A stretch of DNA of 31,714 nt from a virus. The notes beneath the pieces were generated by a model that made no database searches, was not told the origin of the DNA, and saw only the letters and a program-made list of their open reading frames with translations. Of this stretch, positions 1,078-19,427 are shown piece by piece. The position numbers and the translations under genes are program-made. The number at the start of each line of letters is the position of its first letter. The first letter of the stretch is position 1. The stretch covers positions 1 to 31,714 of IMG/VR virus record IMGVR_UViG_3300035670_000886; one strand, given 5' to 3'.

Positions 1078-4028
1078 TCTTCACAAAGTATTGATATATT
1101 AACCCCCACACCTATTTTAAATGTTTTATTTTCAAAGTCATCATCACAAGTTAGATTAAAAATAGTCACACTATTTCCATTGAACTCATATCCAATACCT
1201 TCACTTTGTAAATTAGGAAATTGTGCATTTATTTCGTTCACCCACTGTGTTTGACTTGGGAAATCGTTTGGACCAAATCCTGTATAAAATGGTGTGGTTA
1301 TATTAAGTAACTCTACACCATCTAAATATGCCAATAAATACCACTCACTTACTGTTCCGTTTACAACACAATCGCTGTATGTAAATCCACTTGCTTGTAC
1401 TGATGTTACAATACTATTTGTTAGTACTGTTTGAAGACTTTGTGATATATTACAAGACAATGTATGGGTGGCACAATTATAGTTGAATAGTGACCCGTTA
1501 TACGTACATGGGATGCAAATATCTAACGGACTAACACATCCTCTTTGTCTTTTCCATGAAATTTTTTGTCTTTGTAAAACGTTGTTCTCAAATTTTTGAC
1601 CTCCCATCCATAAGGTTGTGGCTGGTATCATCTGTTCTACAAGTTTCATCCAGTAATCACCAATTCCGTTGGTGAAGTCAATCATTTTTTGGTATGTATA
1701 TTTGTTCGATTCTATTCCTTTTTCTTCTAAAGAATTTATATATCTCCAATAAAGTGATTGTAGTGTTGGGTATCCACCTCCTTTACCATCATCGATGAAT
1801 AGTCTGTCTCTAACATTAATCATATTGAGATAAAATGTTTGAGCAAATTCAAAAAATGTTTTTTCTTTTGGTTTTGGGTTTATTATCGTCCAATCTGCTC
1901 CTTCAGGATATGGATATGGTGAGGTTAACCCTGTTGATGGTATTGGGTAGTCATATTTCTTTGACATATTCCAAATATCATATAAAATACCTTGACCCAT
2001 ATTTAAAGACAACTCAATATTTTTTGAGTTCAATACTAACTTCTCGTCATCTACTTGATAATATGCGTTGTATCCTGCGTTTTTGCTTGTTCTTAAATCT
2101 GTTTCTGTATCTGCCCAAGATTTTTTGTTGTCATAAACTCGTGAAATATTATACCCCATCTTCATATATGGGAAATTTCTAAATCTATTAAAATACTTTT
2201 CACCAAAACTTTTTGTTTCTAATTGAGTTTGGATATTAACATTTTGTCCTGTAAAAACTGAGTTTGTTATATTAACGACTTCAATCGACCTGTGTTCTGG
2301 TGTTGTTTCGTACCAACCTGAACCTTTTTGGAAAAACATATCATCCGTTTCCAAAGGTTTCTTTGGATAACCATTTATGTCTATCGGATAATCATCTCTT
2401 TCTGTGTCTGTAAAAGAAAAGGATGTGGTCGTTGTAAAACCACTATATTCTTGACCCATAAACATAAATGTGTTATCTGGATCCAAGGTTACTGTTTGTT
2501 CAACTTTTGTTCCTCCACTTAATAATGCAAATTCACTATCAAAATCATTTATATTGATGACCCCGTCCGCAAGGTAAAGAGTTTCATTAAATTCAATTAA
2601 CGCTTTTGGTGCCCCAATTAAATTCATAAGAGCTTCTATCGAACGTCTTGTCCCTTTTGATTTGAAGAGATATGCAGAATTTAATATAAGATTTCTATAA
2701 TATTGTTGATTTAATTCGTTTGGTGTTTTTCCTATAGATTGTCCCGAATATGCGGATACTTTGTTCCCCTTAATTAAATTGGCGATAAAGTTCTCATTAC
2801 TTATCGGTGAGATATTGGTATCCCATCCTAATGTTTGTGCTAAATTTGATAATAATTGTGATGGAATATCATTCTTTACTGTATAGTTTACAGAATTCAT
2901 GTTTGATAAAGCATCTATAAACTTTTTTGTTTCATCAAAACTTCTTCCATAAATTTGTAAAACTTTTTCAAATTTTTGTTCTTGGGTATCGAAATCTTTT
3001 AAGGTTCCTGCCGTTAAAAATCTCGATATTAAATCGGTTCTAAAATCGTCAATATCTAAAGCAATTTCACTTAACTTTTCTAAGTATCTATCAAATGAAC
3101 TTGTGGTGATATCTAAATTCCAATGTTTATTAACTAACCAAACTACCTTTTCGTTGGTTTTATATAATTTTCCATCTTCAGTTTCTTTTATAACTTGAAA
3201 AACTGCAGAGTACTTGGGACTTACCTTTCTATTTAATAAAAAGTCTTCAACTTCATCGAAGGCTTCTTTGAATATTTTTTCAGTTTCATCATCATTTGGT
3301 TTTATCACCAAACTAGTTGTTGTTTCAGTTTCATTTCCAAAAGGTTTTCCTTGAACTGTAAATTCAATATATCCATCAACTAAACTACTTGATGGTTCAA
3401 AATCCAAAACTCTATATTCTGTTAGTACATCTGAAAAATATAATGAATATTTTGTATAATTGTTAGTTAAATTTCTATAATTACTAACCTGTATTGGTCT
3501 TAATTGTAAGTTTCTACTAGCATTAACACTATAATCAATATCAAAAGGATTTTTTAATCTTCTGACATTGATTTTAAATGTTGTTGTGTTTTCAACATTA
3601 TCATATGTTATATCATATGCCGTATTACCTGTTGTATAGTCATAATAATCTTTATCAACTTCTAAAGCGGCCGGAAAATAATTAACTATTTTCGTTACCG
3701 ATGTTGATATCCTTTTTTGTATCGACCCGTATAGTGTAAAATTAGTAATTTGTGATATATCATAATTCGGATATACTCTAAATTCTTTTTCAAATAATAT
3801 CTTATTTTCTTCGATATTTTTTGAATTTATATCAGTCAAAGAAAGTGGTTGAGAAAATACTCCTGTGTCAAAGTTTCTTTGTATTCTTTCAACTAAATTC
3901 GTACTAAACTCAAAATTTCCTTGCGTTAGTCCTCCACCCTGAACAACTTGTAAACCAACCAAATTGTCAGAAAATGTACCCCTACCATTCGGTGGTGCGG
4001 GTGGATATCTATATTTATTATCTGCCAT
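1074..4028 (-). CDS. Baseplate wedge protein, P2 gpI / T4 gp7-like
   Basis: This 984-aa protein is close in length to T4 gp7 (about 1030 aa). Residues about 310-480 look like the tail protein I family: a helical stretch (SFDRYLEKLSEIALDIDDFR), then YYRNLILNSAYLFKSKGTRR and SIEALMNLIGAP near 443-474, which match the family's pattern of a short helix, KGT, and a helix ending in G. In P2 and T4 the gpI/gp7 chain joins two gpJ/gp6 chains to make the wedge, and gp6 and gp25 lie upstream in the same operon, so that role is likely. The N-terminal ~300 residues look beta-rich. The C-terminal 155 residues hold eight Cys (831, 838, 841, 852, 859, 887, 961, 982), unusual for a virion protein. The start overlaps the stop of the 302-aa gene by one base (TAATG), and its stop overlaps the next start (ATGA). 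Confidence 0.6.
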   Translation of the reverse strand: MADNKYRYPPAPPNGRGTFSDNLVGLQVVQGGGLTQGNFEFSTNLVERIQRNFDTGVFSQPLSLTDINSKNIEENKILFEKEFRVYPNYDISQITNFTLYGSIQKRISTSVTKIVNYFPAALEVDKDYYDYTTGNTAYDITYDNVENTTTFKINVRRLKNPFDIDYSVNASRNLQLRPIQVSNYRNLTNNYTKYSLYFSDVLTEYRVLDFEPSSSLVDGYIEFTVQGKPFGNETETTTSLVIKPNDDETEKIFKEAFDEVEDFLLNRKVSPKYSAVFQVIKETEDGKLYKTNEKVVWLVNKHWNLDITTSSFDRYLEKLSEIALDIDDFRTDLISRFLTAGTLKDFDTQEQKFEKVLQIYGRSFDETKKFIDALSNMNSVNYTVKNDIPSQLLSNLAQTLGWDTNISPISNENFIANLIKGNKVSAYSGQSIGKTPNELNQQYYRNLILNSAYLFKSKGTRRSIEALMNLIGAPKALIEFNETLYLADGVININDFDSEFALLSGGTKVEQTVTLDPDNTFMFMGQEYSGFTTTTSFSFTDTERDDYPIDINGYPKKPLETDDMFFQKGSGWYETTPEHRSIEVVNITNSVFTGQNVNIQTQLETKSFGEKYFNRFRNFPYMKMGYNISRVYDNKKSWADTETDLRTSKNAGYNAYYQVDDEKLVLNSKNIELSLNMGQGILYDIWNMSKKYDYPIPSTGLTSPYPYPEGADWTIINPKPKEKTFFEFAQTFYLNMINVRDRLFIDDGKGGGYPTLQSLYWRYINSLEEKGIESNKYTYQKMIDFTNGIGDYWMKLVEQMIPATTLWMGGQKFENNVLQRQKISWKRQRGCVSPLDICIPCTYNGSLFNYNCATHTLSCNISQSLQTVLTNSIVTSVQASGFTYSDCVVNGTVSEWYLLAYLDGVELLNITTPFYTGFGPNDFPSQTQWVNEINAQFPNLQSEGIGYEFNGNSVTIFNLTCDDDFENKTFKIGVGVNISILCEE

Positions 4029-4936
4029 TACTGTGTTATGTTAGTAAAATTCTTACTAAAATCGATATTATCATTTCTGTTTTCTCTAACTTCGTACAGT
4101 AGATTGTTAAATTCGTCTCTAATTTCGTATAGGTTATATTGCTTGTAGATATTAAGTTGTGTGTCGTATAGGGTGTATACACCATCTTCAATACTCTTGG
4201 TTTGATTTCCGTACAACGCAATAGCCAAGGTGTCGATATCGTGTTCTGCGATTTCAACATCAACACTTACAGGGTTAAAATATGTATTTGTTAATATAAT
4301 GCTTTGATTTGGTTGACCGATAAATGGTGTTGCGTTTGGTTTATTTGATGGAGCACTCGCAGGTGTTAGTGTACAAAAGATTAGATTACTACCCGATTCA
4401 ACATATCTGTAACGAACAGATTTTTGAGATGAATTTGTAACATTAGATGTTACGGGTTCACAATAAAATGTTGAAGTTACTATTCTATGTAGGTTTTGGA
4501 TTTTAACACCTCCTTCGTTTAGATATTCCACTCTATATCCTACCAAACCTTGATTTATAAATCTACTTCTAAATTCTGATGGAACAGAATTCAAATCTAT
4601 TATTATACCTTTAACATTTGGTAGTGATGAAAGTACACCACAATCTAAAATTGTGGTTCTTATTTGTGCAGGTCGAACATAAACGGTATATATACCGATT
4701 TCACTAAATTCTGAAGCGGGTAATTTTAAATTATATAAACCACCTAAAATCTCTATACCTTGATTTCCACCAGTTTCAGAACTGTGAAAATAAGGTGTTA
4801 ATACTGTCCTTGCATCCAACTTTTTTAATATTGAACTTGGACTTGCATCTCTCGATGGTGTATAATTTAATATTACCTCAACGTCTTCAGGTGAAACGTC
4901 AGCAGGTCTCTTTGTTCCGTATGTTCCTAATGCCAT
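4028..4936 (-). CDS. Unknown baseplate/tail structural protein (302 aa)
   Basis: I do not recognise this family. The protein is soluble-looking, without signal peptide or membrane segment, and rich in beta-prone stretches (GIYTVYVRPAQIRTT, SVRYRYVESGSNLIFCTL). The N-terminus MALGTYGTKRPADVSPEDVEV is Pro/Asp-rich and probably extended. The C-terminal part (DGVYTLYDTQLNIYKQYNLY then EIRDEFNNLLYEVREN) reads as strands followed by a helix. It starts three bases after the stop of the 341-aa gene, and its stop codon overlaps the ATG of the gp7-like gene by one base, so the two are likely translationally coupled and made together. A role as an accessory wedge or baseplate-plug subunit is inferred only from this location. 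Confidence 0.65.
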   Translation of the reverse strand: MALGTYGTKRPADVSPEDVEVILNYTPSRDASPSSILKKLDARTVLTPYFHSSETGGNQGIEILGGLYNLKLPASEFSEIGIYTVYVRPAQIRTTILDCGVLSSLPNVKGIIIDLNSVPSEFRSRFINQGLVGYRVEYLNEGGVKIQNLHRIVTSTFYCEPVTSNVTNSSQKSVRYRYVESGSNLIFCTLTPASAPSNKPNATPFIGQPNQSIILTNTYFNPVSVDVEIAEHDIDTLAIALYGNQTKSIEDGVYTLYDTQLNIYKQYNLYEIRDEFNNLLYEVRENRNDNIDFSKNFTNITQ

Positions 4937-4939
4937 GTC

Positions 4940-5965
4940 TTAAATTTTATTTATTTTAAAATATCCATATCCATATAAAGTTAAATCTCCAATATTGTCC
5001 ACTTCACCAAGTCTTAGTAAAGATTCCAACCCTGAATATTTTCCTCTATCAATAAATATATCTGATTGAATTTCCGGTGACGATACAAACCCAATCATTA
5101 ATTCTTCTTTGGTTATGTATTCTTCATCTAACATCTCTTCTGTAAATCCTTCAGACTCAACAATATATATTGTTGTACCATCAGGATAATCATAATATAA
5201 AATATTGTTTATAGTATATGCCGTATATGTTTCGGTGATTTCATTTACAATACCGTAACTTTCTCCATATTTTTTTACGTCTTTACCTACGACAAATTTG
5301 TTCGGACCATATTGTGTTAACTCGTTTAATTGAGATTTACTATATCCTGTTATCGTTATAGGTGTTGTGGTGAAGTTACTTGAGAGTTGGTTTTCAATCG
5401 TACTAACGGAATCGTCATATATCAATACAGTACCATCGGGAAGAGTAAAACTCGCCTCAGTTACAGGTAAAACAATATCTACAAACGGGAAATACACCCT
5501 CTTTCTAACGTCTAAAGTTCCCCAAGGATTTGTTTGTGTTAATCTAATCACATAAGACGCAGATTCAGGAGCATAAGAATGTGATTTAAAGTTTGGAAAT
5601 ACTTCATTAAATGTTTCAACAACACCGTCCCCCCAATCTATCTGATATGTTGCAAATTTTAAAAATGTTTTGAGTTGTTCTGCCGTATTATATACCTTTA
5701 CCATATAAAGGTTATCTTCATCTCCATCAAAAATAAAATTATTTACAATATCTTTTTGTAAAACAAACCCATCAAACGCGGTATAGAATCCCAAATCATC
5801 ATAAGTTTGATTTAGTATTATAGGTATATTAAAATCTGTGGTTTCTGCGTTAACAAATTGAGACATACCAGAGTATACCCCAAATGTTATTCCCTCATAA
5901 ATTTGAGATGAAATTTCTTTTGTGATAGATTCTGGCGATATCCTAACATAAAACTTATCTTCCAT
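4940..5965 (-). CDS. Baseplate/tail protein with PKD-like domain (341 aa)
   Basis: Residues about 100-160 look like a PKD (Ig-fold) domain: YQIDWGDGVVETF at 107-119 carries the typical WGDG turn, followed by SHSYAPESASYVIRL (128-142), the usual H.Y...g.Y.v.l pattern, and a final strand ending RVYFPF. PKD domains are common adhesive or spacer modules on cell-surface and virion proteins. The regions before and after it are unrecognised; residues 160-290 look beta-rich (ASFTLPDGTVLIYDDS) and the C-terminus is short and mixed. There is no signal peptide. The ATG overlaps the previous stop by one base (TAATG), which places the gene firmly in the baseplate operon. It may be an exposed baseplate or fibre-attachment protein; this is inference. 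Confidence 0.7.
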   Translation of the reverse strand: MEDKFYVRISPESITKEISSQIYEGITFGVYSGMSQFVNAETTDFNIPIILNQTYDDLGFYTAFDGFVLQKDIVNNFIFDGDEDNLYMVKVYNTAEQLKTFLKFATYQIDWGDGVVETFNEVFPNFKSHSYAPESASYVIRLTQTNPWGTLDVRKRVYFPFVDIVLPVTEASFTLPDGTVLIYDDSVSTIENQLSSNFTTTPITITGYSKSQLNELTQYGPNKFVVGKDVKKYGESYGIVNEITETYTAYTINNILYYDYPDGTTIYIVESEGFTEEMLDEEYITKEELMIGFVSSPEIQSDIFIDRGKYSGLESLLRLGEVDNIGDLTLYGYGYFKINKI

Positions 5966-6813
5966 TATGGATTAATATATTCATACCATCTTATCGGGAT
6001 TGTAGTTCCTTCTCTTTTATTTGTATTTGGATTAAATACCTCATATGTATAGTTATTGTAATTCATAAAAACTTTATAATACAAAAACTTGCTTTTATCG
6101 AAACTAAATTTTTGAGGTATGGTTGCTTGTGGTTTATTTAACATCCTAATAAATTGTCCTGTTTTTGCGTTAAAAAACTTCGCGGACATATAAAAAGGTG
6201 ATATATTTAGTTTTTCTGGTTTTTTTAACCAATAAATAAAATACCCTTCTTTATCTCCAACAATATCCAAAACAAATTTGGGTGTTTTTATCTCCACTTC
6301 TCTTGGAATTTCTTCTGTTCCGATATCTACCGTTTCTGTTAACCCTTGTTGTGTGGGAATAATTACTGTGAAATATAATTTTTGTGTTTCGGAATCTGAC
6401 GTGTCATAAAAATCGAGTTTAAAAAAACTTCTTCTAAATGAATTGGCACTGTAATAGATTTCTAAATCAGTAAAACTTTCATCTACTGAACTCGGATTGG
6501 TTGTAAATCCATAATCAGCAACCCAGTTCACCACATTTGCAGATGTGGTGTCTCTAATATCAATAGATCTATCATAAAACAAAAAGTTATACGTTATCTT
6601 TGTGTTTACAATTCCAAAATTTGTCCACTTTTCGTGTCTATATCTAACAACTTCGAAATCCTTAATGGGATTTGCAACCCTTTCGATAACGTCTTTTTCA
6701 AAAGATGTAATCAAATCTTCTTTTCCCGATAAATCAAAATCAATTTCAATAGGAATATTTATATTTCTATCAATTTGATTAATACCAAATCTATACTTAT
6801 TCACAATCGTCAA
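5965..6813 (-). CDS. Unknown baseplate/tail structural protein (282 aa)
   Basis: I do not recognise this family. It is a soluble, charged protein with many aromatic residues and alternating strand-like segments (FFKLDFYDTSDSETQKLYFT, FIYWLKKPEKLNISPFYMSA), typical of virion beta-sandwich proteins. The full reading frame begins with TTG at 6813, overlapping the upstream gene by 17 bases. An in-frame GTG at 6804 (giving VNKYRFGINQ) would reduce the overlap to 8 bases, so the true start is uncertain by three codons. The stop overlaps the next ATG by one base. Its position between the 567-aa protein and the PKD-like protein in a tightly packed baseplate operon supports a structural role. Confidence 0.65.
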   Translation of the reverse strand: MTIVNKYRFGINQIDRNINIPIEIDFDLSGKEDLITSFEKDVIERVANPIKDFEVVRYRHEKWTNFGIVNTKITYNFLFYDRSIDIRDTTSANVVNWVADYGFTTNPSSVDESFTDLEIYYSANSFRRSFFKLDFYDTSDSETQKLYFTVIIPTQQGLTETVDIGTEEIPREVEIKTPKFVLDIVGDKEGYFIYWLKKPEKLNISPFYMSAKFFNAKTGQFIRMLNKPQATIPQKFSFDKSKFLYYKVFMNYNNYTYEVFNPNTNKREGTTIPIRWYEYINP

Positions 6814-8500
6814 TTATTGGTGAGAAAATTATGTCATTAAAGACTTTGGACATCTGTATAATTGGTTTGTGTAAGAATAAAATATCTTTAAACGGATAAT
6901 GGGCACCATTTATAAATGGAATGTTAAGTCCGATATTGTTGTTGTCTATATAACCATCGATATATATGTCCCTCCACCTCCACTGATTTTCATATTCAGA
7001 AAAATATGCATAGTCTGGTATCAAATCAGCCTTCTCTTTATCCGCAATTTCAATATAGTCAGAAGTTGCTTTGATATTAATCTCATGATGTGGAATATAA
7101 GCATATCCATCAGGCAAACTATTCGGACTATTGTTGTTTATCACATTGTAGTTGAATGAATATTTGTGATAATGTTCTGATAAAACAACCTCGGTTTGTT
7201 CATAATAATTGAATTCACAAATATCTCCCTTTATCTCATGACCCAACTCCAAATCTTGATTATAATAAAATTTTATTGCACTTTTTTCATAAAATGTATT
7301 CGGTATGCCGCTCACATTTTTATTATTACTTAAGTTCCACCAATTGTCTATTTGTGTTGACAAAAAATTAAAGTCCCACCCTATTTGTAAACCAGAGTTA
7401 AATGATGGTTTATTAAAATAACCCATATAACCCTTGTTTATAATCGTAACATATAAATTAATTAAAGGTCTTCCCAAATGGTCGAACAGATTTGATATGT
7501 CAATATCTTTTTTAAATGAAAATGCGGTGGTTTGTGTTCCCTCCTTTACTGAAATCCTTTCAACATTATTCGGTGTTAACGAGGCATATTCCAACTTCCT
7601 CTTGCTCGGAAAAATGCTGTTCTCAAAACCCATCTTATGTATCTCCTTATCAGAATTTTCTGTTAAAGTTTTATGTACCCTGACATAATATTCAGATAAG
7701 GTTTCATTAACATTTTTTATGTTACCTATCCTTTTAAAATTTCCAGTTTCATAATCAAAAAACCCACCGATATATCCAACATTGTATATGTAAAATACTT
7801 TATCTTCGTTACCATAAGACAAGTCTCCCAACCCATAAACCTCAAAATCTGTCTTTCCATTTATGGGATTTTTAAGTCTTATCCAATTTCCAACCTTTAA
7901 ATTGTGTTTAAAACCACAATAGAAATATGTTAGATTTTTTCCATTAACTTTTATTGTTTTATTGTAATAAGGTATCCCATCTTTAACAGAGAATGTTCTC
8001 GTATATGTCGTATCGTTTTCCTCAAATCTAATCGTTAAACTTTGGTCATAATCTTTTTTGGCGGCATACGTTACATAAACCATCCAATTATATGATGATG
8101 CACTTATAGGTTCAAAGTTCACATGTCCAGGTACTCCCGTAGTTCTAAAAAAAGAAAACTCATCGTATTGTGGATAACCCTTCCATTCTGAACCACTCTC
8201 TATCGTACCCAAAGCATCCAAATAATATAAATTATTTCTAAATGGTTCATAAGTCGTTTTTGCAGAAATAGAGTTTTCAAAAATGTTGACAATTTTTCCA
8301 GAAATTCTATACGTCTGATTTTCAAACCTTTCTTGTGTAAATTTTTCTTGAAGATTTAATATCACACTTCTGTCACCCTCCACATAATTTCTTTGGTTAA
8401 CGTCCAAATTAATCTGCAAACTAAGATCAACGTTAGAGGAACCAGCAAACCGGTCTTCACCTCTAACAATTCTTATCTGATCTTCCTTTTGATTACTCAT
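6797..8500 (-). CDS. Unknown large virion protein (567 aa)
   Basis: I do not recognise this family. The protein begins MSNQKEDQIRIVRGEDRFAG and is rich in Asn, Tyr, Phe and Asp, with many short strand-like stretches (NQTYRISGKIVNIFENSISA, SLTIRFEENDTTYTRTFSV) and no membrane segment, signal peptide or obvious coiled coil. This composition is typical of beta-rich tail or fibre proteins. The ATG overlaps the stop of the 1668-aa gene by four bases (ATGA), so it is probably translated by coupling to that gene, and its own end overlaps the 282-aa gene. A role as a baseplate-peripheral or fibre-connector protein is inferred from the operon alone. Confidence 0.65.
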   Translation of the reverse strand: MSNQKEDQIRIVRGEDRFAGSSNVDLSLQINLDVNQRNYVEGDRSVILNLQEKFTQERFENQTYRISGKIVNIFENSISAKTTYEPFRNNLYYLDALGTIESGSEWKGYPQYDEFSFFRTTGVPGHVNFEPISASSYNWMVYVTYAAKKDYDQSLTIRFEENDTTYTRTFSVKDGIPYYNKTIKVNGKNLTYFYCGFKHNLKVGNWIRLKNPINGKTDFEVYGLGDLSYGNEDKVFYIYNVGYIGGFFDYETGNFKRIGNIKNVNETLSEYYVRVHKTLTENSDKEIHKMGFENSIFPSKRKLEYASLTPNNVERISVKEGTQTTAFSFKKDIDISNLFDHLGRPLINLYVTIINKGYMGYFNKPSFNSGLQIGWDFNFLSTQIDNWWNLSNNKNVSGIPNTFYEKSAIKFYYNQDLELGHEIKGDICEFNYYEQTEVVLSEHYHKYSFNYNVINNNSPNSLPDGYAYIPHHEINIKATSDYIEIADKEKADLIPDYAYFSEYENQWRWRDIYIDGYIDNNNIGLNIPFINGAHYPFKDILFLHKPIIQMSKVFNDIIFSPIIDDCE

Positions 8501-11500
8501 ACGCTTTCTACTGTTATATACTTTTTAACAAATCTATTTAATGCACTTTTTCCTCTTTTCAAACCAAAATAAAAATAGAAAGGAGACCCAACCTTGAAAT
8601 TTTCATCGTTAATATCTGTGACAGGGTACTCACTAAAGGTTTCATCGTTAATACTTCTATTATAAATATACCCTAATCCGTAACCTGAGTCCGGCTTCAT
8701 ATATTTTATAGGTGTAATTACAGGACTGTAGAAAAAGTCGTCTCCCTGATATTTGGATGAATAAATAACGTCAGTAGTCCATGTGTTTAAATCGGTACCA
8801 AATAACTCTCCGTTATTGTTTACCTTCCACATATAATATGGAACCAACTGTGTTTTTTCGTATCCAAAAGTATTTGTAGGACCGTCAGGTAACAATCCAA
8901 AAGTGGTAACACCATTGGTTAAGATTCTCCTTAAGATAACATCAGATTCAAACCAAATACCAAAGGTCTCATCTCCAACATAAATTTGGTCATTTCTATA
9001 ATCAGCCTCCAAAAATGGTGTAACTCCAATCTCAGAATTTATACTGACCATCTGAGCAAAGTCACCATCAATCCTCGAATCAAAGAAACTTTGGTCGTCT
9101 CTAGAAAATATTTTTGATATCGAAGCATCACCCAAATTAAGTAAATCTTCTAAGAAATTAGAATTTTGTAATCTACTAATAATAAATAAATTAATCAAAT
9201 TACTATTGTCCGCATATGATGTGGTTCTTAATTTGTCCATGATATATTCACCAAATACATCAGATAAAACAATCTCCTTTAAGTATTTGTTTTTTGGTCC
9301 CAAATCCATAATAGTAGTTGGGAACCATATATTTCTTTTATTCGTTCTGTACCTGTCATATCTAGTAGATTCTTGTCCCAAAAATTTGTCTGTGTTGTCG
9401 TTATATGGTGTAGACCTATAATAAAAAGTGTTTGTGTCAGTATTAAAATATATAGGTCCTTGGAATTTTAAATTGTCATTGGGTTGTTGGGGGTCACCAC
9501 AATATTTGTATCTAGATACCTCATTGTCTGAATCATAAAAAGTTTTTTTCTGAAATGATGGATAATATAATGTGCCATTTATCCAATTATTCTGAAACAT
9601 CTCACCAATAATTCCCTGACAAACAGCAAACATAAACCTCATTCTCGTTCTGTATTCAAAAAACGCTTCAATATCTCTTGGTATTGTTAAAATTAATTTT
9701 TTAATTACAAATCTATAACAACCATTTACTAATCGTTCATTACTTTCTATTAACGCACCTGGAATATCACAAGGATCTTCTATTGTAAAACTTTCACCAG
9801 AACCAACATAACAATCTAATGGTACCATACCTTCACAAGAAAAACTTTCGAGTATTGATGATGAGTAATCTGACCCATAATCATCTGAATCTTCTTGAGA
9901 GTCTTCATAATTTCCACTACTATCTGTCGGTTGAAAAGATAAGTCATTACCTATTACTTCAATTTCACCATCATCAGAAATTGCATAGATTTTAAAATTA
10001 AGGTTTAGATGTAAACCATACCTTCTAAAATAGATATCATCAGTATCAATATCAGAAGGTTCATCCCAAAAATCAGAAGATGGTATTCTATCACTTCTAA
10101 AAATTAAATTGGTACTTGTACTTAACGTTGTTACGGGTTGGTCTCCACCATATGGGTCTGATAGTTGTGGGTTAGCACCAAAATATAAACTAGAAAAAGT
10201 TATAACGTCCTTTGGGTTTTCAATATCCCTATTATCTACATTTTGTTTTGAATATTGAAATCCACATCCTTCAATTCTTTGTTGAAATGAATTTGCAATC
10301 GGATTAGTTTGTACATTTACTAAGTCTATTTCTCCTCCTTCAAATAACTCATTAAGTTGATTTAATTCGGTTTCATGGGTAAAACTTTTATCGACGGAAA
10401 CATATTTGTTTGGTGCTTTAGTATTAAATTGTACCCAATCGTCTTCAGGAAACATTAGGGTAAAAGACGGATTCCACAAATTAGGTAAGTCCATCAGATC
10501 ATATGGTCCTCCATTATTATTGGTAAAATCCACACTAGAATTAGAATTATAAGATTGCACAAATAACAAATCGTGATCCACATTATATTTTCTCTGATGG
10601 TGTGGTACCGGTGTTCTATTATCTTGTCTCCAAACATTTGTTTTAAGAGTACTACCTGAATAATTAGTATTTCTTTGTATAGGTATATTTAAGTAATAAT
10701 CACCTTCAACTGTAACATTATTATCAAAATCATACCAATTATTATTACTTCTTCCAAAAAGTTTAGAAATATTATATTTTATACGTTGTCTTGGTGTATA
10801 AACATCAACTCCTCTCACAACAACTGTTATATAAAATGAATTTTTAAAATCTTCAATACCATCAGGGACAACTACGGATTGATCAGGATCTTCTTTATTT
10901 GCTTGACCATTATCACATCCATAATGTTGTGTCCAACCATTTACGATATTTCTAAGTATTGAAGTTTTACTAAAATCAATAAGATTAATAATTTCATTAA
11001 ATGTAAAAGCAGTTATTACTTGGAAATACTCTACACCTGCAGTTTTATCGTATATTTTGGTTTCATTAGGATTATATATTTTTATGGTTGAATCGACAAC
11101 CAAATCACCACTAGGGTCATTTTTTACACCTTTTATTGTTTTTGTAACATATCCTGTTGTAGAAAAATTAGTAGGAACTTCTTTTCCTAAATTCGGGTCG
11201 TTTATTTTATTTGGGTCATTTAACGTAAATAATTGTCCAGCACTTAACCTGTTCTCCATTATTAAAACCAATGGCATATCATATATAGGATCCGATGTCT
11301 CTAAACCAAAAATATCATTTTGTACTGTGGTTGTGATTGCCATAGGAAAATTTGTTTCATAATATTGATTTCTTCTATTCATTAGGTTTAAACCTTGTGA
11401 ATATGTCGGATTGGAATTCACATAAAAATTAGATATGTTAGGGTCTTCATTATTATTAAATGTCATATAAACTGGCGATTTATACCATTCTGAATGATCG

Positions 11501-13503
11501 TCTGGACTGCCACCCCATATATCCTCATAATAACCATCCGTTCTTTGGTCATATCCTGAATGTACCAATTGTCCTGTTAGTAACTCCGCCTCTTCATTGT
11601 TAAAATTACTAGAACACAATGATTTTTTATATGTATCTCCGGCAGATGAACCGATTAAAACTCCAGACGATGTAAATTCTGAAATGTTGTCTAATAATGA
11701 TTGTGAAGTTTCAGAACTATTATCAACCGTCTCCATTCTACATTCACAGGTCTCACAATCAGGATAAGTTAACATAGGTAAAGATATATTCTTAAAGGGA
11801 TTTTCATTAGGAAGTTTCTCTATTAAAGCTTCTTTACAATCCTCTTTATCTATTCTTCTTGATAATAACGCAACCGCTAAACATATTACAAAAATAAATC
11901 CATTTACTATTGCGACTATAAAATTTATTATAAATCTAATTACAGGATATATGAGTGCCAATACGTGTAATAATACTATTAACGTAATAAATGTTGGTGT
12001 TAAAATTGTAAGTAATAGATTAAATAAAAATATAAGTACATTACCATTTCTTTGAGCATCATTTACAGGAAATCTATTATTTTCTGATTGACATGATTTA
12101 TCATTTATCTCTTTGATTCCTATATGTTTTTGTCTTCCTCTACCCCACTTGAATCTATCGATATGTGATGCGACGGTATAAACCTTGTTATAATAAAAAT
12201 TATAAAATGTATCTTCACATTTTATTGCTGAATCGATATCATAATATTCTGACCAATCTAAAGAGAACGCATATGAAGAGTTTCTATTGACAGGTATTTG
12301 GTTTAATTCACTACCAACTCCATTTACCCATCCATGTTCTTTTATGTTTGGTATCAAATAATTTGCCCTTTGTATTTCGTTAGTCAAACCACCTTCAACA
12401 TCCCAACCTATCTTAAACCTATATTTACCTTGTGTTGGTATACCTTTTGATGCGTCGTTTGATACTATTCTATTTCCAAACTCATCAGTAATTAAATATT
12501 CTAGGTTCATAGGTATTTCTATCAACCAAACACCATTTTCATCAATAACATATCCACCATCCGGTAATTTATACTCCTCTAAAACAGGATATCCGTCAGC
12601 GTCTAAATTTATGGTTTGTCTTATACAAAGTATTTTTCCAATTCCTGTAATTAAATCACATAATTTACCTGTATCATTTTTTGGTTTACAATTTCCCTTT
12701 ATATAATCATCTTCATTTGAAGATAAGATGGACCCCATAAACACAGAGTGAGGTTGAATATCTATTCCAAAATTCCTTAAATCAAAATCCACCCTAGTGA
12801 TACCCACATCACATACTTCCCCTTCACCCCAAAAAGATGAAACATTTATATCCAATACTTCATGAACTATTTGTGGTAGTGAATCTAAATCCTCTGACGA
12901 TTTAAATAATTCACCATTAAATTGTTCAGGTACACCCATACCCATCCTTATCAAATCGCTAGGTCTTAATGAAAACTCACCTATGTTTGATAGGTCTAAA
13001 TCCATAACTATTTTTTGTGGACCTGTAGGTACTCCAACAATCATAAAATCGCCAGATTCGTTAGTTCTTACTGTATATTTATAATATTTTTCATATACCT
13101 CTAATACTTCTCTTCTTGTCAATATGTCCTGTCTTGTTGGAAAAGTTCCTGTCGCTGTGTGTCCTAAATATTCATTTTCATATGGAAGTAAATTATATCT
13201 ATAACCATCTTCATTTTTATCACCCGGCGTTCTATATGGATATAGTGTTGATATTATGGGATTATCCGCATCCTCATTTGTTATTTTAATAAAAATAGAT
13301 ATTAATGCGTTTGGTACACCTAACCCACCATTGGCAACAACTCGACCGACAACCACACCATAGTCTGCACAAAATCTTTCATAAAGGTCTTCTTGTGTTA
13401 ATTTTAAAGATAAAATTTCTAAAAAATCAAAATCTTGTTCTATATTAAGTCTGACTTCTCTATCGACACCAATATTTGTTTTAAATCTGTATGATTTGGG
13501 CAT
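8497..13503 (-). CDS. Giant baseplate-operon protein with CnaB-like domain and hydrophobic segment (1668 aa)
   Basis: This is an unrecognised virion-type protein. Residues about 48-170 resemble a CnaB or carboxypeptidase-regulatory-like fold: VVGRVVANGGLGVPNALISI (51-70), a ~75-residue insertion with a polar loop, then the closing strands TNESGDFMIVGVPTGPQKIV (147-166). Residues 488-548 are almost wholly hydrophobic (VLIFLFNLLLTILTPTFITL, later FIVAIVNGFIFVICLAVALL), enough for two or three membrane-spanning helices, bounded by RNGN on one side and SRRIDKEDCK on the other. A Cys motif DCETCEC follows at 582-588. The remaining ~1080 residues are polar and beta-rich, with Asp/Ser-rich stretches near 1210. 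The length approaches a tape-measure protein, but helical repeats are absent and the gene lies inside the baseplate cluster. Its stop overlaps the next gene (ATGA). Confidence 0.75.
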   Translation of the reverse strand: MPKSYRFKTNIGVDREVRLNIEQDFDFLEILSLKLTQEDLYERFCADYGVVVGRVVANGGLGVPNALISIFIKITNEDADNPIISTLYPYRTPGDKNEDGYRYNLLPYENEYLGHTATGTFPTRQDILTRREVLEVYEKYYKYTVRTNESGDFMIVGVPTGPQKIVMDLDLSNIGEFSLRPSDLIRMGMGVPEQFNGELFKSSEDLDSLPQIVHEVLDINVSSFWGEGEVCDVGITRVDFDLRNFGIDIQPHSVFMGSILSSNEDDYIKGNCKPKNDTGKLCDLITGIGKILCIRQTINLDADGYPVLEEYKLPDGGYVIDENGVWLIEIPMNLEYLITDEFGNRIVSNDASKGIPTQGKYRFKIGWDVEGGLTNEIQRANYLIPNIKEHGWVNGVGSELNQIPVNRNSSYAFSLDWSEYYDIDSAIKCEDTFYNFYYNKVYTVASHIDRFKWGRGRQKHIGIKEINDKSCQSENNRFPVNDAQRNGNVLIFLFNLLLTILTPTFITLIVLLHVLALIYPVIRFIINFIVAIVNGFIFVICLAVALLSRRIDKEDCKEALIEKLPNENPFKNISLPMLTYPDCETCECRMETVDNSSETSQSLLDNISEFTSSGVLIGSSAGDTYKKSLCSSNFNNEEAELLTGQLVHSGYDQRTDGYYEDIWGGSPDDHSEWYKSPVYMTFNNNEDPNISNFYVNSNPTYSQGLNLMNRRNQYYETNFPMAITTTVQNDIFGLETSDPIYDMPLVLIMENRLSAGQLFTLNDPNKINDPNLGKEVPTNFSTTGYVTKTIKGVKNDPSGDLVVDSTIKIYNPNETKIYDKTAGVEYFQVITAFTFNEIINLIDFSKTSILRNIVNGWTQHYGCDNGQANKEDPDQSVVVPDGIEDFKNSFYITVVVRGVDVYTPRQRIKYNISKLFGRSNNNWYDFDNNVTVEGDYYLNIPIQRNTNYSGSTLKTNVWRQDNRTPVPHHQRKYNVDHDLLFVQSYNSNSSVDFTNNNGGPYDLMDLPNLWNPSFTLMFPEDDWVQFNTKAPNKYVSVDKSFTHETELNQLNELFEGGEIDLVNVQTNPIANSFQQRIEGCGFQYSKQNVDNRDIENPKDVITFSSLYFGANPQLSDPYGGDQPVTTLSTSTNLIFRSDRIPSSDFWDEPSDIDTDDIYFRRYGLHLNLNFKIYAISDDGEIEVIGNDLSFQPTDSSGNYEDSQEDSDDYGSDYSSSILESFSCEGMVPLDCYVGSGESFTIEDPCDIPGALIESNERLVNGCYRFVIKKLILTIPRDIEAFFEYRTRMRFMFAVCQGIIGEMFQNNWINGTLYYPSFQKKTFYDSDNEVSRYKYCGDPQQPNDNLKFQGPIYFNTDTNTFYYRSTPYNDNTDKFLGQESTRYDRYRTNKRNIWFPTTIMDLGPKNKYLKEIVLSDVFGEYIMDKLRTTSYADNSNLINLFIISRLQNSNFLEDLLNLGDASISKIFSRDDQSFFDSRIDGDFAQMVSINSEIGVTPFLEADYRNDQIYVGDETFGIWFESDVILRRILTNGVTTFGLLPDGPTNTFGYEKTQLVPYYMWKVNNNGELFGTDLNTWTTDVIYSSKYQGDDFFYSPVITPIKYMKPDSGYGLGYIYNRSINDETFSEYPVTDINDENFKVGSPFYFYFGLKRGKSALNRFVKKYITVESV
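11860..12042 (-). other. Sequence coding a 61-residue hydrophobic, membrane-like segment
   Basis: This stretch codes for residues 488-548 of the 1668-aa protein. The segment is nearly uncharged for 60 residues (one Arg and one His), with Pro at 503 and 520 and Gly at 535 breaking it into two or three possible helices. Basic residues follow (SRRID). I see no other comparable hydrophobic run in the proteins of this window. Confidence 0.75.
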
Positions 13504-13586: not shown

Positions 13587-15425
13587 TTATGAGAAGTTAA
13601 CACTTTTCAAAGTTTTGACTCTAACTTTAATATCTCTTTCAGGAAATCTTATTTGATATATCTGATTTGGTTCTGCAAATATATTATCATCAATTAATGA
13701 TATTTCTTTTGTCGCAGAATTTAAATACGGTTGTGATGTTTCATTTGATGAGTATTGTCCTCCGACCTTGTTGAATATTTTAATACTGCTAAGAGTATTA
13801 ACTCCAGGTATTTCTTGAACAATTCTTCTTATATCTGAAACGTTTACATTTTTACCTAAGTTATTAACTAATGGTGAAAAATATGAATTCACACTATTAA
13901 CTATGTTTGTAATGATTAACCCCTGACTTTCTGATGATTCAACAACAACTGAAAACTCGATTTCTAAATCGATTACCTTAGCGCTTTCAACAGAAATATA
14001 ATCATTTATCATTCTATAGTTTGATAAATAATTTGCAATATTTTGTTTTAGTGTATTTGATACCGTTGTTGTTAGTTTTCCTAAATTATCATAAGACAAT
14101 ATCTGAATTTTGATTTTATTGTCCTCTTCAATTATTGCCGCTTTTGCAGGTGCTCCGTACTTACTCGGCATTGTTCTAATCAAGGAGTTATAATCATTTA
14201 TAGTAACCGCTCTTTTCTGTGCTGCGAAGTTAAAAGATACCATGTTTCTAACTTCTTCCGTTGTTGGTAGGTTACCTCCACCTATTGCGGCAGTCACATT
14301 ATTACAACTTAAACTTCTTTTAACATTCTCATTGATATTACTAGATGGTCCATTTACTGAAAAATTAATTGTACCAAAACTATTAATTGTGTTTATACCA
14401 ATGTTTGAGGAGACTCCTCCTCCGATTCTGTAACGAACAAATAATGTTGTGTTTGGTTTTACTGTTTTACCTAATCCAATATTGTTTTGATAATTTTCTA
14501 ATGTTAAAGGTATACCTGTTCTAGTAAACTGTGATAATTGATCGTCGGGTGTTGTTGTTGCCCCTCCAAATATAATTCTACAATAACCTTCGGGAGTATA
14601 TTCACTAATAAATCTATTTTCAGTTTCAATATATCTACCAACTTTTATTCCTGGTTTATCTGAAGGTTTTGTTGGATCTTCAACAAACACTCTATTTTCT
14701 GCCAAAGCATCGACTTCATACCACTTATCTGATGATGTTATAAATTCATCATAGGTTGGAGGACTCGCATATTGCGTACCATCTTTTTGAATTATTGTTG
14801 TTATTTCCAACACATTCTTTTCAGGTAAAAAGAATTCAAAAAAGGGTACAACATCATTTGCATTTACAACTTTTTTAAAAACTTTAGTTATACCATTTAC
14901 AACCACTTCTCTTTTTGTGATTGTATAATTTATAACTTTATTGTTTGAGTCAAAGTTTGGTATTTTCTTTCTGTTAGGAAATCCCTCACTATTATACTGT
15001 GTTGAAAAATCTATATCATTTACATTTTCAAAGAATTGTCCCGCACCAACGAACTGAGACCCCGCCCTTAAGATTCCCAAGTATCTACTGTCCTCAGCAT
15101 CACCAAATGCGGGTACTGTTATTGATATGTCAACTAAAGCAACTGAGGGTCTATTTCCCGGTATTTTTAAACCATAGGTTCTTGCGATATTATATATTGA
15201 TGACTTTTGTTGTGCATATTGTAATACGGTTTCTTGAATACTTCTATCTACATGATAATGTAAATTATCTGTAACCGCAGCGTTCAAATCCAATAAAACG
15301 GAGAATACGGAAGCGTCATTAAAGTTGTCTATTAAGTCAGGGTAGTATTGCTGTGTATAATTAATCAGGTCTTGACGTAAGCCTTCAAAATCTCTTTCTG
15401 TATATGAAATTCTTCTATTTGACAT
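13587..15425 (-). CDS. gp6: Baseplate wedge protein gp6 (baseplate J-like)
   Basis: This 612-aa protein is slightly shorter than T4 gp6 (660 aa). The first 100 residues carry the gp6/gpJ signature: ISYTERDFEGLRQDLINY, then DNFNDASVFSVLLDLNAA near 33-50, then HVDRSIQETVLQYAQ and SSIYNIARTYGLKIPG (75-90), which place the long N-terminal helices seen in the family. The central region (about 300-420) includes GRYIETENRF, IIFGGATTTPDD and VRYRIGGGVSSNIG, resembling the conserved baseplate-J beta core, and the C-terminal part has a ferredoxin-like pattern (IDLEIEFSVVVESSE). Two gp6-type chains and one gp7/gpI chain form each baseplate wedge, with gp25 at the base. The gene follows gp25 by 5 bases, the same order as T4 25-6, and the leader TATTTAATATTT lacks a Shine-Dalgarno sequence. 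Confidence 0.92.
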   Translation of the reverse strand: MSNRRISYTERDFEGLRQDLINYTQQYYPDLIDNFNDASVFSVLLDLNAAVTDNLHYHVDRSIQETVLQYAQQKSSIYNIARTYGLKIPGNRPSVALVDISITVPAFGDAEDSRYLGILRAGSQFVGAGQFFENVNDIDFSTQYNSEGFPNRKKIPNFDSNNKVINYTITKREVVVNGITKVFKKVVNANDVVPFFEFFLPEKNVLEITTIIQKDGTQYASPPTYDEFITSSDKWYEVDALAENRVFVEDPTKPSDKPGIKVGRYIETENRFISEYTPEGYCRIIFGGATTTPDDQLSQFTRTGIPLTLENYQNNIGLGKTVKPNTTLFVRYRIGGGVSSNIGINTINSFGTINFSVNGPSSNINENVKRSLSCNNVTAAIGGGNLPTTEEVRNMVSFNFAAQKRAVTINDYNSLIRTMPSKYGAPAKAAIIEEDNKIKIQILSYDNLGKLTTTVSNTLKQNIANYLSNYRMINDYISVESAKVIDLEIEFSVVVESSESQGLIITNIVNSVNSYFSPLVNNLGKNVNVSDIRRIVQEIPGVNTLSSIKIFNKVGGQYSSNETSQPYLNSATKEISLIDDNIFAEPNQIYQIRFPERDIKVRVKTLKSVNFS

Positions 15426-15430
15426 AAATA

Positions 15431-15913
15431 TTAAATATTAATAATAACAAAATCCCTCGTACCAAAGGTTGAGTTTTTAATTGTGTAATCAATTTTTATT
15501 TTGGCAGTATAATCTTCCGTTCCTTGTCCTGCACGTCTATAAATATCAAACATTTTATATTCACCAGGGTCTGTGTCGTAAGTTTTTAAACTAGAGGCAG
15601 AATTAATATCTTCTCTTTTATATGGTTCAATACTAATATCATTGATTTCTAAGTTTGGTATATACCTTTCAACCGCGTCTCTTATTTCAGATTTTATACT
15701 TTCAAAAGTTATATTATCCATAGGTTCAAAAATAAAATCATAAATTCTTGTACCAAAATCTGGTAGATAATATCTTGAACCTTTTTTAGTGAAAATTAAA
15801 TGCAACAAATTTGTTCTTACCTCCTCATCAGGAGATTCAGACATAGATAGATAGTATCCTTTTCTACTATCCCTAAACGGAAAATTTATACCAAAAGTTT
15901 TATTTAATAACAT
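15431..15913 (-). CDS. gp25: Baseplate wedge protein gp25 (GPW/gp25 family)
   Basis: The 160-aa product contains the gp25/gpW hallmark GSRYYLPDFGTRIYDFIFEP at residues 45-64, followed by an amphipathic helix (ESIKSEIRDAVERYIP) and a strand (LEINDISIEPY). T4 gp25 is 132 aa; here ~30 extra residues fall mainly in the C-terminal half (an insertion with YDTDPGEYKMFD). gp25 joins the baseplate to the tube and sheath and has a lysozyme-unrelated fold shared with other contractile injection systems. It opens the baseplate module directly after the nrdA terminator, so it likely has its own promoter in 15914-15952. Translation probably starts at the ATG at 15913, preceded by ATTTATAT and no Shine-Dalgarno sequence. 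Confidence 0.92.
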   Translation of the reverse strand: MLLNKTFGINFPFRDSRKGYYLSMSESPDEEVRTNLLHLIFTKKGSRYYLPDFGTRIYDFIFEPMDNITFESIKSEIRDAVERYIPNLEINDISIEPYKREDINSASSLKTYDTDPGEYKMFDIYRRAGQGTEDYTAKIKIDYTIKNSTFGTRDFVIINI

Positions 15914-15952
15914 ATATATAAATATAGTATTTATCGTTTTTAAATATATGAT
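15914..15952 (-). promoter_or_regulatory. Candidate late promoter before gp25
   Basis: Sense-strand reading gives AAACGATAAATACTATATTT shortly before the ATG. GATAAATA (15930-15937 on the opposite strand as tatttatc) equals the NATAAATA late-promoter core described for T4-like cyanophages (T4: TATAAATA). It lies about 17 bases before the start and follows the nrdA terminator, so a new late transcript beginning here is plausible. The other strand also carries TATAAATA (15917-15924), pointing away from gp25. The region is so AT-rich that chance matches are a real possibility. Confidence 0.4.
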
Positions 15953-15984
15953 AAAAAAAATCCCTCATTTGAGGGATTTTTTTT
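15953..15984 (-). terminator. Intrinsic terminator after nrdA
   Basis: This is a perfect 14-bp stem: aaaaaaaatccctc (15953-15966), loop attt, then gagggatttttttt (15971-15984). In the direction of transcription it reads A-tract, CCCTC core, loop, GAGGG, T-tract. Because it is symmetrical it can stop transcripts from either side. The A-tract touches the TAA stop of nrdA, so it closes the replication/nrd operon before the baseplate operon. Confidence 0.9.
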
Positions 15985-18446
15985 TATGATGAACACGTTT
16001 CACAATTTGGGTCGTCTATTGAACAAACCTTAGCGACCATGTCTTGAGGTATATTCACATTAAAGTTTACTTCGTTTTTAATTCTTGGTTCCTCCACTTT
16101 TTCAATTTTACTTAATTGTGATGTGTCGATACCCAACCCTTTTAACGCCGAAGCCTTAGCCTTTGTTCTTAAATAATACATACCTGTTTTAAGTCCAATA
16201 CTCCAACCATAAAAGTGTGCTGAAGAAAGTTTTGAATGTGTAACATCCTTCATGAAAAGATTCAGTGATTGAGATTGGTCAATAAAGTATCCTCTATCTC
16301 TTGCCATATCAATCAAGTTTTTACCTTTCATCTCCCAAACAGTCTTATACACTTCTCTTATATTTTGAGGTATTTCATTAATTTCTTGAACGGACCCTTC
16401 ATTCATAAACAACTTTAATCTAATATCATCGTTCCATAATCCAATAGTCTCTAGATCTTCGACTAAATGTTTGTTTATCATAACAAATTCTCCTGAAAGA
16501 GTATTTCTTTTGTATAGATTTGCTGTGAATGGTTCAAAACACTCGTTATTACCCAAAATTTGTGCGGTAGAAGCCGTTGGCATTGGTGCCAATAGTAGTG
16601 AATTTCTAATTCCAAACTCCTTTATTTCTTTCTTCAACCCAATCCAATCCCAACGGCCTGACAAATTCTCTTCAGTTAATCCCCACATATTATACTGTAA
16701 AATACCTTCAGATGCAGGTGAACCTTGGAATGTTTCATATGCACCGTCTCTTTTCGCCAAATCTTTAGATGCTGTCAATGCTGCGAAATAGATAGTTTCA
16801 AAAATATCTTTATTCAACTTCATCGCTTCTTCAGACTCAAACGGTAATCCCAAAATAGCAAAAGCGTCTGCCAATCCCTGAACCCCTAACCCGATTGGTC
16901 TGTGTCTAAAATTGGACCTCTTCGTTTCAGGTGTAGGATAGAAATTAATATCAATAACTCTATTAAGATTGACTGTTGCTTGATATGTAACTTCAAAAAG
17001 TTTTTCAAAGTCAAAACTTCTTAGTTTTTTATTTCTACTTCTAACCTTTCCACCTGGAATATCCACCATTTTTGGTAACGCAATAGATGCTAAATTACAG
17101 ACCGCAGTTTCCTTTTTATCTGTATATTCAAGAATCTCAGTACACAAATTAGATGATTTAATAGTTCCCAAGTTCTTTTGGTTAGATTTAGAATTCGCAG
17201 CGTCCTTATACAACATATATGGTGTACCTGTCTCAATTTGTGAATCTAAAACTTTATCCCATAGTTCTCTAGCCTTTATTACTTTAATCGCCTTTCCTTC
17301 TTTTTCATACTTCTCATACAAAGCGGTGAATTTCTTATCTTCCTTTGTATCATAAGCGTCGATAAGTCCGGGAACTTCGTTTGGTGAGAATAAAGACCAA
17401 AGTCCATCTGCTTTAACTCTTTCCATAAACAAGTCAGGAGTCCATAGTGCCAAAAATAAATCACGAGCCCTCAATTCTTCTTTACCATGATTCTTTCTTA
17501 AATCAAGAAATTCAAAGATATCAGCATGCCATGGCTCCAAGTAAACGGCAATGGAACCTTTTCTTTTTCCACCACCCTGATCTACGTATCTCGCAGTTTC
17601 ATTGAAGACACGAAGCATAGGAATAATTCCGTTAGATGTTCCGTTTGTTCCTTTAATATACGAACCCTTAGAACGAATTTTGTGAATGTTTATACCTATA
17701 CCACCCGCCGATTGCGAAATCAATGCACAATCAGAAAGTGTTTTGTAAATACCCTTTATTGAATCGTCATCAACATCTAATAGAAAACAAGATGAAAGTT
17801 GTGGTCTTTTTGTTCCTGCGTTAAATAGTGTTGGTGTTGCGTGTGTAAAGTCACCATTGGACAACATCTCATATGTTTTTTGTACCATCTCCAAGTTATC
17901 ACCCCAAATACCAACAGAAACTCTCATATACATATGTTGTGGTGTTTCTGCCACTTCACCATTAATTTTTAACAGGTAAGCTCTCTCAAGTGTTTTGTAC
18001 CCGAAAAAATCAAAGTTAAAGTCTCTGTCATGAACAATCATTGCGTCAAGTTCCTTGGCGTGTTTTTCAATGACGGAATATGTCTCGTCTGAAATCATGC
18101 CGGCAGGTTCTCCTGTGTTAGGGTTAATATAGTTATATAGACTTTTCGCTACATATGAAAAGTGTTTGTTAACCTTTTTATACATAGAAGATATTGCAAG
18201 TCTAGCCGCCAATATTGAATAGTCAGGGTGAATTGTTATCATAGATGCTGCGGTTTCTGAAGCAAGTCTATCCAACTCTTCAGTTGTAACACCATCGTAA
18301 AGTCCTGATATTACTTTTTTAGAAACTTCAACATAATCAACATAATCAGTATTTAAACCCCATGTTGACTTTTTAATACGTGCAGAAATTTTGTCAAACT
18401 TAACAGGTTCTCTACTACCATCTCTTTTTAATACTTCCATTCCCAT
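15984..18446 (-). CDS. nrdA: Class Ia ribonucleotide reductase large subunit NrdA
   Basis: NrdA reduces NDPs to dNDPs using a radical delivered by NrdB. The 820-aa protein has an N-terminal ATP-cone (KRDGSREPVKFDKISARIKK, about residues 7-26), allosteric activity control being its known role. The catalytic residues are all visible: redox pair C220 (SSCF) and C450 (TAVCNLA), active-site N433, C435 and E437 (SSNLCTEI), the PMPTAST loop at 621-627, and the radical-relay pair Y757-Y758 (KTGMYYLRT). The C-terminal tail has C815 and C818 (CETCSS) for re-reduction by thioredoxin or glutaredoxin. Nothing is truncated, so the enzyme should be active. It follows nrdB by 17 bases and ends in a strong terminator. 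The start could be the first ATG or M3; both follow an A/T-rich leader. Confidence 0.97.
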   Translation of the reverse strand: MGMEVLKRDGSREPVKFDKISARIKKSTWGLNTDYVDYVEVSKKVISGLYDGVTTEELDRLASETAASMITIHPDYSILAARLAISSMYKKVNKHFSYVAKSLYNYINPNTGEPAGMISDETYSVIEKHAKELDAMIVHDRDFNFDFFGYKTLERAYLLKINGEVAETPQHMYMRVSVGIWGDNLEMVQKTYEMLSNGDFTHATPTLFNAGTKRPQLSSCFLLDVDDDSIKGIYKTLSDCALISQSAGGIGINIHKIRSKGSYIKGTNGTSNGIIPMLRVFNETARYVDQGGGKRKGSIAVYLEPWHADIFEFLDLRKNHGKEELRARDLFLALWTPDLFMERVKADGLWSLFSPNEVPGLIDAYDTKEDKKFTALYEKYEKEGKAIKVIKARELWDKVLDSQIETGTPYMLYKDAANSKSNQKNLGTIKSSNLCTEILEYTDKKETAVCNLASIALPKMVDIPGGKVRSRNKKLRSFDFEKLFEVTYQATVNLNRVIDINFYPTPETKRSNFRHRPIGLGVQGLADAFAILGLPFESEEAMKLNKDIFETIYFAALTASKDLAKRDGAYETFQGSPASEGILQYNMWGLTEENLSGRWDWIGLKKEIKEFGIRNSLLLAPMPTASTAQILGNNECFEPFTANLYKRNTLSGEFVMINKHLVEDLETIGLWNDDIRLKLFMNEGSVQEINEIPQNIREVYKTVWEMKGKNLIDMARDRGYFIDQSQSLNLFMKDVTHSKLSSAHFYGWSIGLKTGMYYLRTKAKASALKGLGIDTSQLSKIEKVEEPRIKNEVNFNVNIPQDMVAKVCSIDDPNCETCSS

Positions 18447-18464
18447 AATTAAAATTTTTTTTTA

Positions 18465-19427
18465 TCAGAAATCCTCGTCTATTGAAAACTCTTTTTCTTC
18501 TTCCGTACCTACTCCACTCTTGGAATATTCAGCAACTCTTTTCTCAAAAAAGTTTGTCTTATTTTCCATTGCAATATTTTGCATAAAATCAAATGGATTT
18601 GATGTGTTGTATACTTTACCAACACCTAAATCAAAATACAATCTATCTGTAACATACTCAAGATATTGACTCATCAATTCTGAATTCATACCGATAAGTG
18701 ATACAGGCAATGACTCAGTAATGAACTCTTTCTCAATCTCAAGAGCGGAACCAATAATTTCTTTGATTCTTTCGGGTGTTACCTTATTTTGAATATGATT
18801 GTTATGTAGATGTACGGCAAAATCACAGTGAAGTCCTTCATCACGAGAAATCAACTCGTTTGAAAAACTAAGTCCGGGCATCAATCCTCTCTTCTTCAAC
18901 CAAAAGATTGAACAAAAAGACCCTGAAAAGAATATACCCTCAACAGCGGCAAAAGCGATAAGTCTTTCAGCAAAAGATGGTGACTTAATCCACCTCAATG
19001 CCCACTCTGCTTTTTTTCTAACCGCGGGTATGGTATCGATTGCGTTGAACAAATGTTTTTGTTCTTCTTTGTCTTTGATGTATGTGTCAATCAAAAGTGA
19101 ATATGTTTCACTATGAATGTTTTCCATCATGATTTGAAATCCATAGAAAAATTTCGCTTCAGTATATTGTACTTCATTTACAAAGTTCTCAGCGAGATTT
19201 TCATTTACGATTCCATCTGATGCTGCGAAAAACGCTAAAACATTTTTAATGAAATGTTTTTCACCATCATTTAGATTTGACCAATCCGTTAAGTCTTGTG
19301 CCAAATCAATTTCCTCTGCCGTCCAAAAACTAGCTTCGGCTTTTTTATAATATTCCCAAATATCATGATGTTGTATTGGAAATAATACAAATCTTCCGGG
19401 ATTCTCAACTAAAATTTTTTCTTCCAT
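18465..19427 (-). CDS. nrdB: Class Ia ribonucleotide reductase small subunit NrdB
   Basis: NrdB makes the tyrosyl radical for NrdA. The di-iron ligands are all present: D71, E102, H105, E163, E197 and H200 (motifs [24 protein letters not shown]). The radical tyrosine is Y109, four residues after H105 as in E. coli (H118/Y122). The 320-aa length is typical, if somewhat short. The C-terminus, KEFSIDEDF, resembles the FTLDADF tail of mammalian R2, the peptide that docks onto the large subunit, rather than the E. coli NrdB tail; I infer the pair belongs to the eukaryote-like subgroup of class Ia that is also found in Bacteroidota. It lies 7 bases after gp41 and just before nrdA, so B precedes A. 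Confidence 0.97.

Follow-up and report, generated by a model that had tools for sequence, protein, structure and literature searches.

A 31,714-nt viral DNA (IMGVR_UViG_3300035670_000886, positions 1-31,714, from IMG/VR; hereafter the window) contains, among genes for a phage baseplate, an open reading frame for a 1668-aa protein with one long hydrophobic segment (protein X; 8497-13503, minus strand). What might such a segment do in a tail protein? The initial annotation proposed that it could be shielded in the virion and inserted into the host membrane on contact, for example to form an ejection pore. Our analysis partly supports this membrane interpretation.

A conserved hydrophobic segment in protein X

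The segment spans amino acids 488-548 of X (12042-11860, minus strand; NVLIFLFNLLLTILTPTFITLIVLLHVLALIYPVIRFIINFIVAIVNGFIFVICLAVALLS). It had been described as nearly uncharged, 61 residues long and bordered by polar sequence, with a DCETCEC motif downstream, and each of these points was borne out: the coordinates are exact, R523 is the single charged residue, and the motif lies at aa 582-588, within a YPDCETCEC cysteine motif (aa 580-588; 11740-11766, minus) that is conserved in homologues. Mean Kyte-Doolittle hydropathy over the segment is 2.29; when X was shuffled 2000 times, the best window of 61 residues averaged 0.63 and reached 1.52 at most. The best 19-mer of the segment scores 2.94, and its apparent insertion energy lies clearly below zero. 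In a hydropathy scan this was the only hydrophobic stretch of X, an N-terminal hydrophobic signal was absent, and none of the other baseplate-operon ORFs in the window had a comparable stretch; the ribonucleotide reductase small subunit encoded in the window reaches 1.78. As a separate observation on that enzyme, the window encodes (15984-19427) a large subunit of 820 aa and a small subunit of 320 aa, and a 270-kb relative (L181:16611-17888 and 14889-16592) has an ATP-cone on its small subunit and a short large subunit; the cone may thus have passed from one subunit to the other.

We examined conservation among homologues of at least 700 aa, with near-identical N-termini removed and the window's own copy among the loci. 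All 86 distinct testable homologues (IMG/VR) have a strongly hydrophobic segment at the corresponding position, and none was found without it in this operon position; the segment is still kept when identity over the module drops to 22%. These homologues are related sequences, and the counts given here and below are not counts of independent events. The cysteines and the proline around the segment are also strongly conserved: C471, P479, C583 and C588 are invariant in 87/87 rows of the alignment, C586 is kept in 82/87, the motif [YF]P[DE]CxxCxC occurs in 79 of the 86 homologues, and the upstream flank (aa 471-487; 12043-12093, minus) follows a conserved C-x7-P-x-N-[DE]-x2-R pattern. By comparison with the region up to the cysteine motif, the C-terminal half of X (aa 600-1668; 8500-11706, minus) is variable across homologues.

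The two halves of the segment differ in character. The first (aa 489-518; 11950-12039, minus) is free of charge in X and in 74/87 rows, with at most one charge in any row, and it holds two conserved polar residues, N495 (70/87 rows) and H513 (82/82 aligned). The second (aa 519-548; 11860-11949, minus) is amphipathic, with R/K at 523/524, N527, N534 and C541 on one face. Across the homologues its charged and polar positions cluster at 523/524, 527, 530/531, 534/535, 538, 541/542 and 545, the hydrophobic moment is greatest at about 100 degrees per residue, and the charges fall on one face. This half is strongly basic in some lineages (L130, L134), and some homologues carry up to 10 charges in the core segment, nearly all of them in the second half, so that only the first half is membrane-like family-wide. 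A further hydrophobic segment, mostly glycine-rich, is present in 11/87 rows. Taken together, these results confirm that the hydrophobic segment of X is a real and strongly conserved feature.

Relatives of X and the baseplate operon

Searches with whole X gave no match in PHROGs, Pfam or 50,697 phage records, the X profile had no real match among PDB sequences, and in a single scan of genomes from bacteria and archaea no relative came up. Relatives were found in uncultured viral contigs: a first scan of IMG/VR gave 78 loci with homologues, and in an alignment query at least 575 candidate stretches, among the 599 listed, encode X relatives. Total length varies among the homologues, from 1335 to about 2100 aa, the short end being a divergent branch (L073, L076, L152, L153 and L178) with ~27% overall identity and complete proteins of 1335-1380 aa. 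A structural relative in BFVD is an uncharacterised protein of Myoviridae sp. ctPuP5, with 42% identity over the aligned part. The C-terminal match of a distant homologue to a 642-kb phage was set aside as probably a shared domain, as the profile finds no X relative in that region. Irregular loci were also seen. One homologue (L031:3535-9817) lies in two overlapping frames, through a frameshift, an assembly error or an intervening element. Directly upstream of the L076 homologue is a 109-aa protein (L076:9659-9988) with a hydrophobic segment at 26-59 and a CxC start, and the operon of the same distant relative is broken by two similar ORFs (L076:15901-16800 and 17665-18567) that are possibly homing-endonuclease genes, judging by their N-termini only.

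The gene order gp25-gp6-X-F-E-D-C-B is constant across very diverse loci. PHROGs and profile comparison identify a gp25-type baseplate wedge protein (15431-15913, minus) and a gp6/J-type wedge protein (13587-15425, minus) upstream of X. The gp6 gene lies directly upstream of X in 166/167 loci with room for it, and F directly downstream in 97 of 99, some of these loci being repeats of one contig. Protein F (567 aa; 6797-8500, minus) overlaps X by 4 bases and is a possible partner of X. Protein E (282 aa; 5965-6813, minus) has an N-terminus weakly like that of X, possibly a common docking motif, and this similarity was not prominent when the proteome of a relative was searched. Proteins D (341 aa; 4940-5965, minus) and C (302 aa; 4028-4936, minus) are further members of the baseplate operon, and protein B (984 aa; 1074-4028, minus) comes last.

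The position of X after gp6 suggested a gp7 equivalent, a candidate that was dropped when B gave the profile match. Over aa about 304-491, B is of gp7/TssG/P2-gpI type by hhalign to proteins of Microcystis phage Mel-JY01 (E 8e-7), Flavobacterium phage immuto (1.4e-5) and LR756508 (1.5e-4), whose own gp7/P2-gpI-type label comes from position and sequence rather than annotation; B alone has no clear family match. Comparing X profiles with T4 gp7 and with the gp7-type protein of immuto gave a probability of 0.3% or less. Most likely, then, X is not gp7, and with B as the gp7-type protein X appears to be an additional, lineage-specific one. Of the initial description of X as a baseplate wedge protein, the fixed place in the baseplate operon holds, but the gp7-type wedge protein is B. 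No protein like X was found in the operons of immuto, Mel-JY01 and LR756508, and tails of this type therefore do not all depend on X.

In the 270-kb relative we found sheath and tube genes, which confirms a contractile tail. The proteins of 697, 1585 and 2204 aa encoded upstream of its operon have no comparable hydrophobic segment, and X is the only large tail protein in that part of the genome with one. The 1585-aa protein (L182:12698-17452), between the tube/sheath and the baseplate genes, has an OmpA-family domain of the peptidoglycan-binding type (E 1.2e-6). We also considered X as the tape measure protein and rejected this, since it sits in the baseplate operon, its N-terminal half is mainly beta, and the tube and sheath genes of the relative are ~26-31 kb off. 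Elsewhere in the window, a 2075-aa protein (25397-31624, minus) has a weak C-terminal match to the tail-protein family phrog_52 (E 1.5e-4). From this setting we infer that X is a structural baseplate protein, present in the virion, of a large uncultured group of contractile-tail phages.

Predicted structure of X

A single-chain model of aa 1-720 (26 sequences, mean pLDDT 58.7) predicts a beta-rich N-terminal part and an unbroken helix at 483-547. AlphaFold2 applied to aa 405-605 (73 sequences) likewise predicts one continuous helix, 488-547, with pLDDT of about 83-95 per ten-residue block. The two or three transmembrane helices originally suggested are not what the models give, and a two-helix hairpin was discarded because neither model breaks the helix. 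The phase agreement of the two helix halves fits a continuous helix, weakly, as changing the angle used by 1 degree moves it by ~30 degrees. A structure prediction that buries the segment in a soluble core had been named as an outcome that would speak against the membrane idea; the single-chain model places the segment outside the globular core, and such models are silent on packing against other subunits.

The N-terminal part is predicted to contain a beta-sandwich (aa 42-248; 12760-13380, minus) of transthyretin/carboxypeptidase-regulatory-like type, with an insertion. Structure comparison gave Z up to 6.7 and 2.3-2.5 A over 79-87 residues with several such domains, a Z below 8 that may reflect a common arrangement. 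Pfam CarboxypepD_reg matched 16 of 26 homologues at E up to 0.1 (best 3e-6), and X itself scored 14 bits against a cut-off of 32.3. In the Foldseek list, pilins and other beta-sandwich proteins had TM-scores too low for anything beyond the shared sandwich arrangement, and Foldseek with the helix module returned nothing meaningful.

Possible roles of the helix and comparison with known tails

The reading that we prefer, tentatively and at somewhat less than even confidence, is that X belongs to the baseplate of the virion and keeps a membrane-active helix stowed there, which is inserted into the host envelope on firing. The conserved N-terminal half would dock into the baseplate and the variable C-terminal half would face outward, with the 60-residue helix between them packed away against partner subunits of the virion and the conserved cysteines perhaps holding both of its ends, by disulfide or metal. 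Opening of the baseplate at the host surface would free the helix; its charge-free half would go into the host membrane, and its amphipathic, often basic half would lie along the membrane or line a bundle through its polar face. X inserted in this way would anchor the tail and may aid formation of a DNA passage. Stowage, release, insertion and pore are all steps that we infer. A more specific version, in which several helices form an inside-out bundle with the polar stripe N495-H513-N527-N534 inside, crossing the host membrane after contraction and forming or lining the DNA channel, we consider improbable.

Retention of the segment in 86/86 homologues, its charge-free first half and amphipathic second half, the confident helix prediction, the fixed operon place and the lack of a similar segment in the other operon proteins favour the membrane reading, and so do the extra glycine-rich segments in 11 rows, which a packed soluble core would tolerate less easily. 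Against it, a continuous helix of 60 residues (~90 A) far exceeds the thickness of one membrane, and the core segment of some homologues carries as many as 10 charges. A doubtful though serious rival is a buried structural helix, one that never meets a membrane and has gp6, F or further X copies as its packing partners in a soluble baseplate. The expectation that wedge proteins normally have no membrane-like segment is only partly right, and T4 gp7 is the telling case: RefSeq gives it a predicted integral membrane domain, which we located at aa 877-908 and which the calculation used for X also classes as transmembrane, it has there an uncharged helix of 25 residues, and it nevertheless forms part of several baseplate structures that have been solved, such as 5iv5. 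Hydropathy and conservation alone are therefore no proof of membrane insertion. Specific packing would also suit the polar stripe on one face of the X helix and the conserved N495, H513, N527 and N534; polar residues are conserved there beyond what a generic membrane anchor would show. T4 gp7 resembles X in its place after gp6 and in its transmembrane-looking segment, but there is no profile similarity between the two, and in this operon the gp7 type is represented by B. The X segment is about twice as long as that of T4 gp7 and more hydrophobic (best 19-mer 2.94 versus 2.07), and it is on this ground that the membrane reading is, narrowly, preferred. Moreover, none of the faces of the first 30 residues is charged, so that a large non-polar partner would be required to bury them fully, and such a stretch is absent from the other operon proteins; the additional hydrophobic segments of the 11 rows also speak against burial.

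Two further explanations would have X meet a membrane of the infected cell. An assembly tether, with the helix anchoring baseplate intermediates to the host inner membrane during tail building and later shielded or released, seems unlikely to us. A helix this hydrophobic, once synthesised in the cytoplasm, would tend to encounter the membrane, and in Anabaena a baseplate-associated membrane helix of Cis13 anchors a contractile system in the membrane of its producer; however, nothing separates a tether from entry, we identified no insertion signal or topology determinant in X, and free phage would still have to shield the helix. Still less probable, and in our view very improbable, is that X does not belong to the virion and is a phage membrane protein acting in the infected cell, for example in exclusion or in modifying the envelope, whose gene sits among the baseplate genes by chance. 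We found no homologue with proteomic evidence, and transthyretin-like domains are known from surface proteins too. This explanation, however, has to contend with the unbroken gp25-gp6-X-F-E-D-C-B order over very diverse loci and the 4-base X/F overlap, the weak N-terminal similarity of X to E, the lack of a hydrophobic N-terminal signal, and a length and a variable C-terminal part such as tail proteins typically have.

If the preferred membrane reading is right, X may help the phage tail to grip or pierce its bacterial host, and a bundle of X helices, if it forms, would be a baseplate-derived ejection pore in a myovirus. How DNA passes the inner membrane after a contractile sheath has fired is still poorly understood, and the X helix, from an abundant uncultured phage group and with conserved polar and cysteine positions, is a concrete candidate.

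One trait of tail-tip membrane inserters was found in X, namely an internal membrane-like helical segment that is long enough for at least one membrane span and conserved in homologues, and the use of such segments by known tails favours the membrane reading. In phi29 gp9 the L-loops are bundled helices while the knob is mature, and after ejection they make up a helix barrel that is largely hydrophobic (PMC6542822). As proposed for X, gp9 is a tail-tip protein with an internal helical segment, hydrophobic for the most part, that is stowed and then exposed, in its case after genome release (PMC6542822), but phi29 has a short non-contractile tail and X one predicted 60-residue helix, and the two are likened by feature, not homology. 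T5 pb2 has a stretch of 46 hydrophobic residues (PMC10038345); it is the tape measure protein of a siphophage, whereas X lies between gp6-type and gp7-type wedge genes, outside the tape measure position. The RcGTA megatron is a baseplate component with a proposed pore-lining helix, the iris/penetration helix (PMC7296036), and differs from X in that its helix is short and N-terminal and its particle non-contractile. In Anabaena, a contractile machine is held at a membrane through a predicted transmembrane helix in Cis13, a tail-fibre/baseplate extension (PMC8894136); this helix is C-terminal and provides thylakoid anchoring in the producer's own membrane, and the likeness to X is again one of feature only. 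A membrane-active segment at the tail tip is thus not the wholly new role that had been suggested for a baseplate component: phi29 gp9, T5 pb2, the RcGTA megatron and Anabaena Cis13 precede it.
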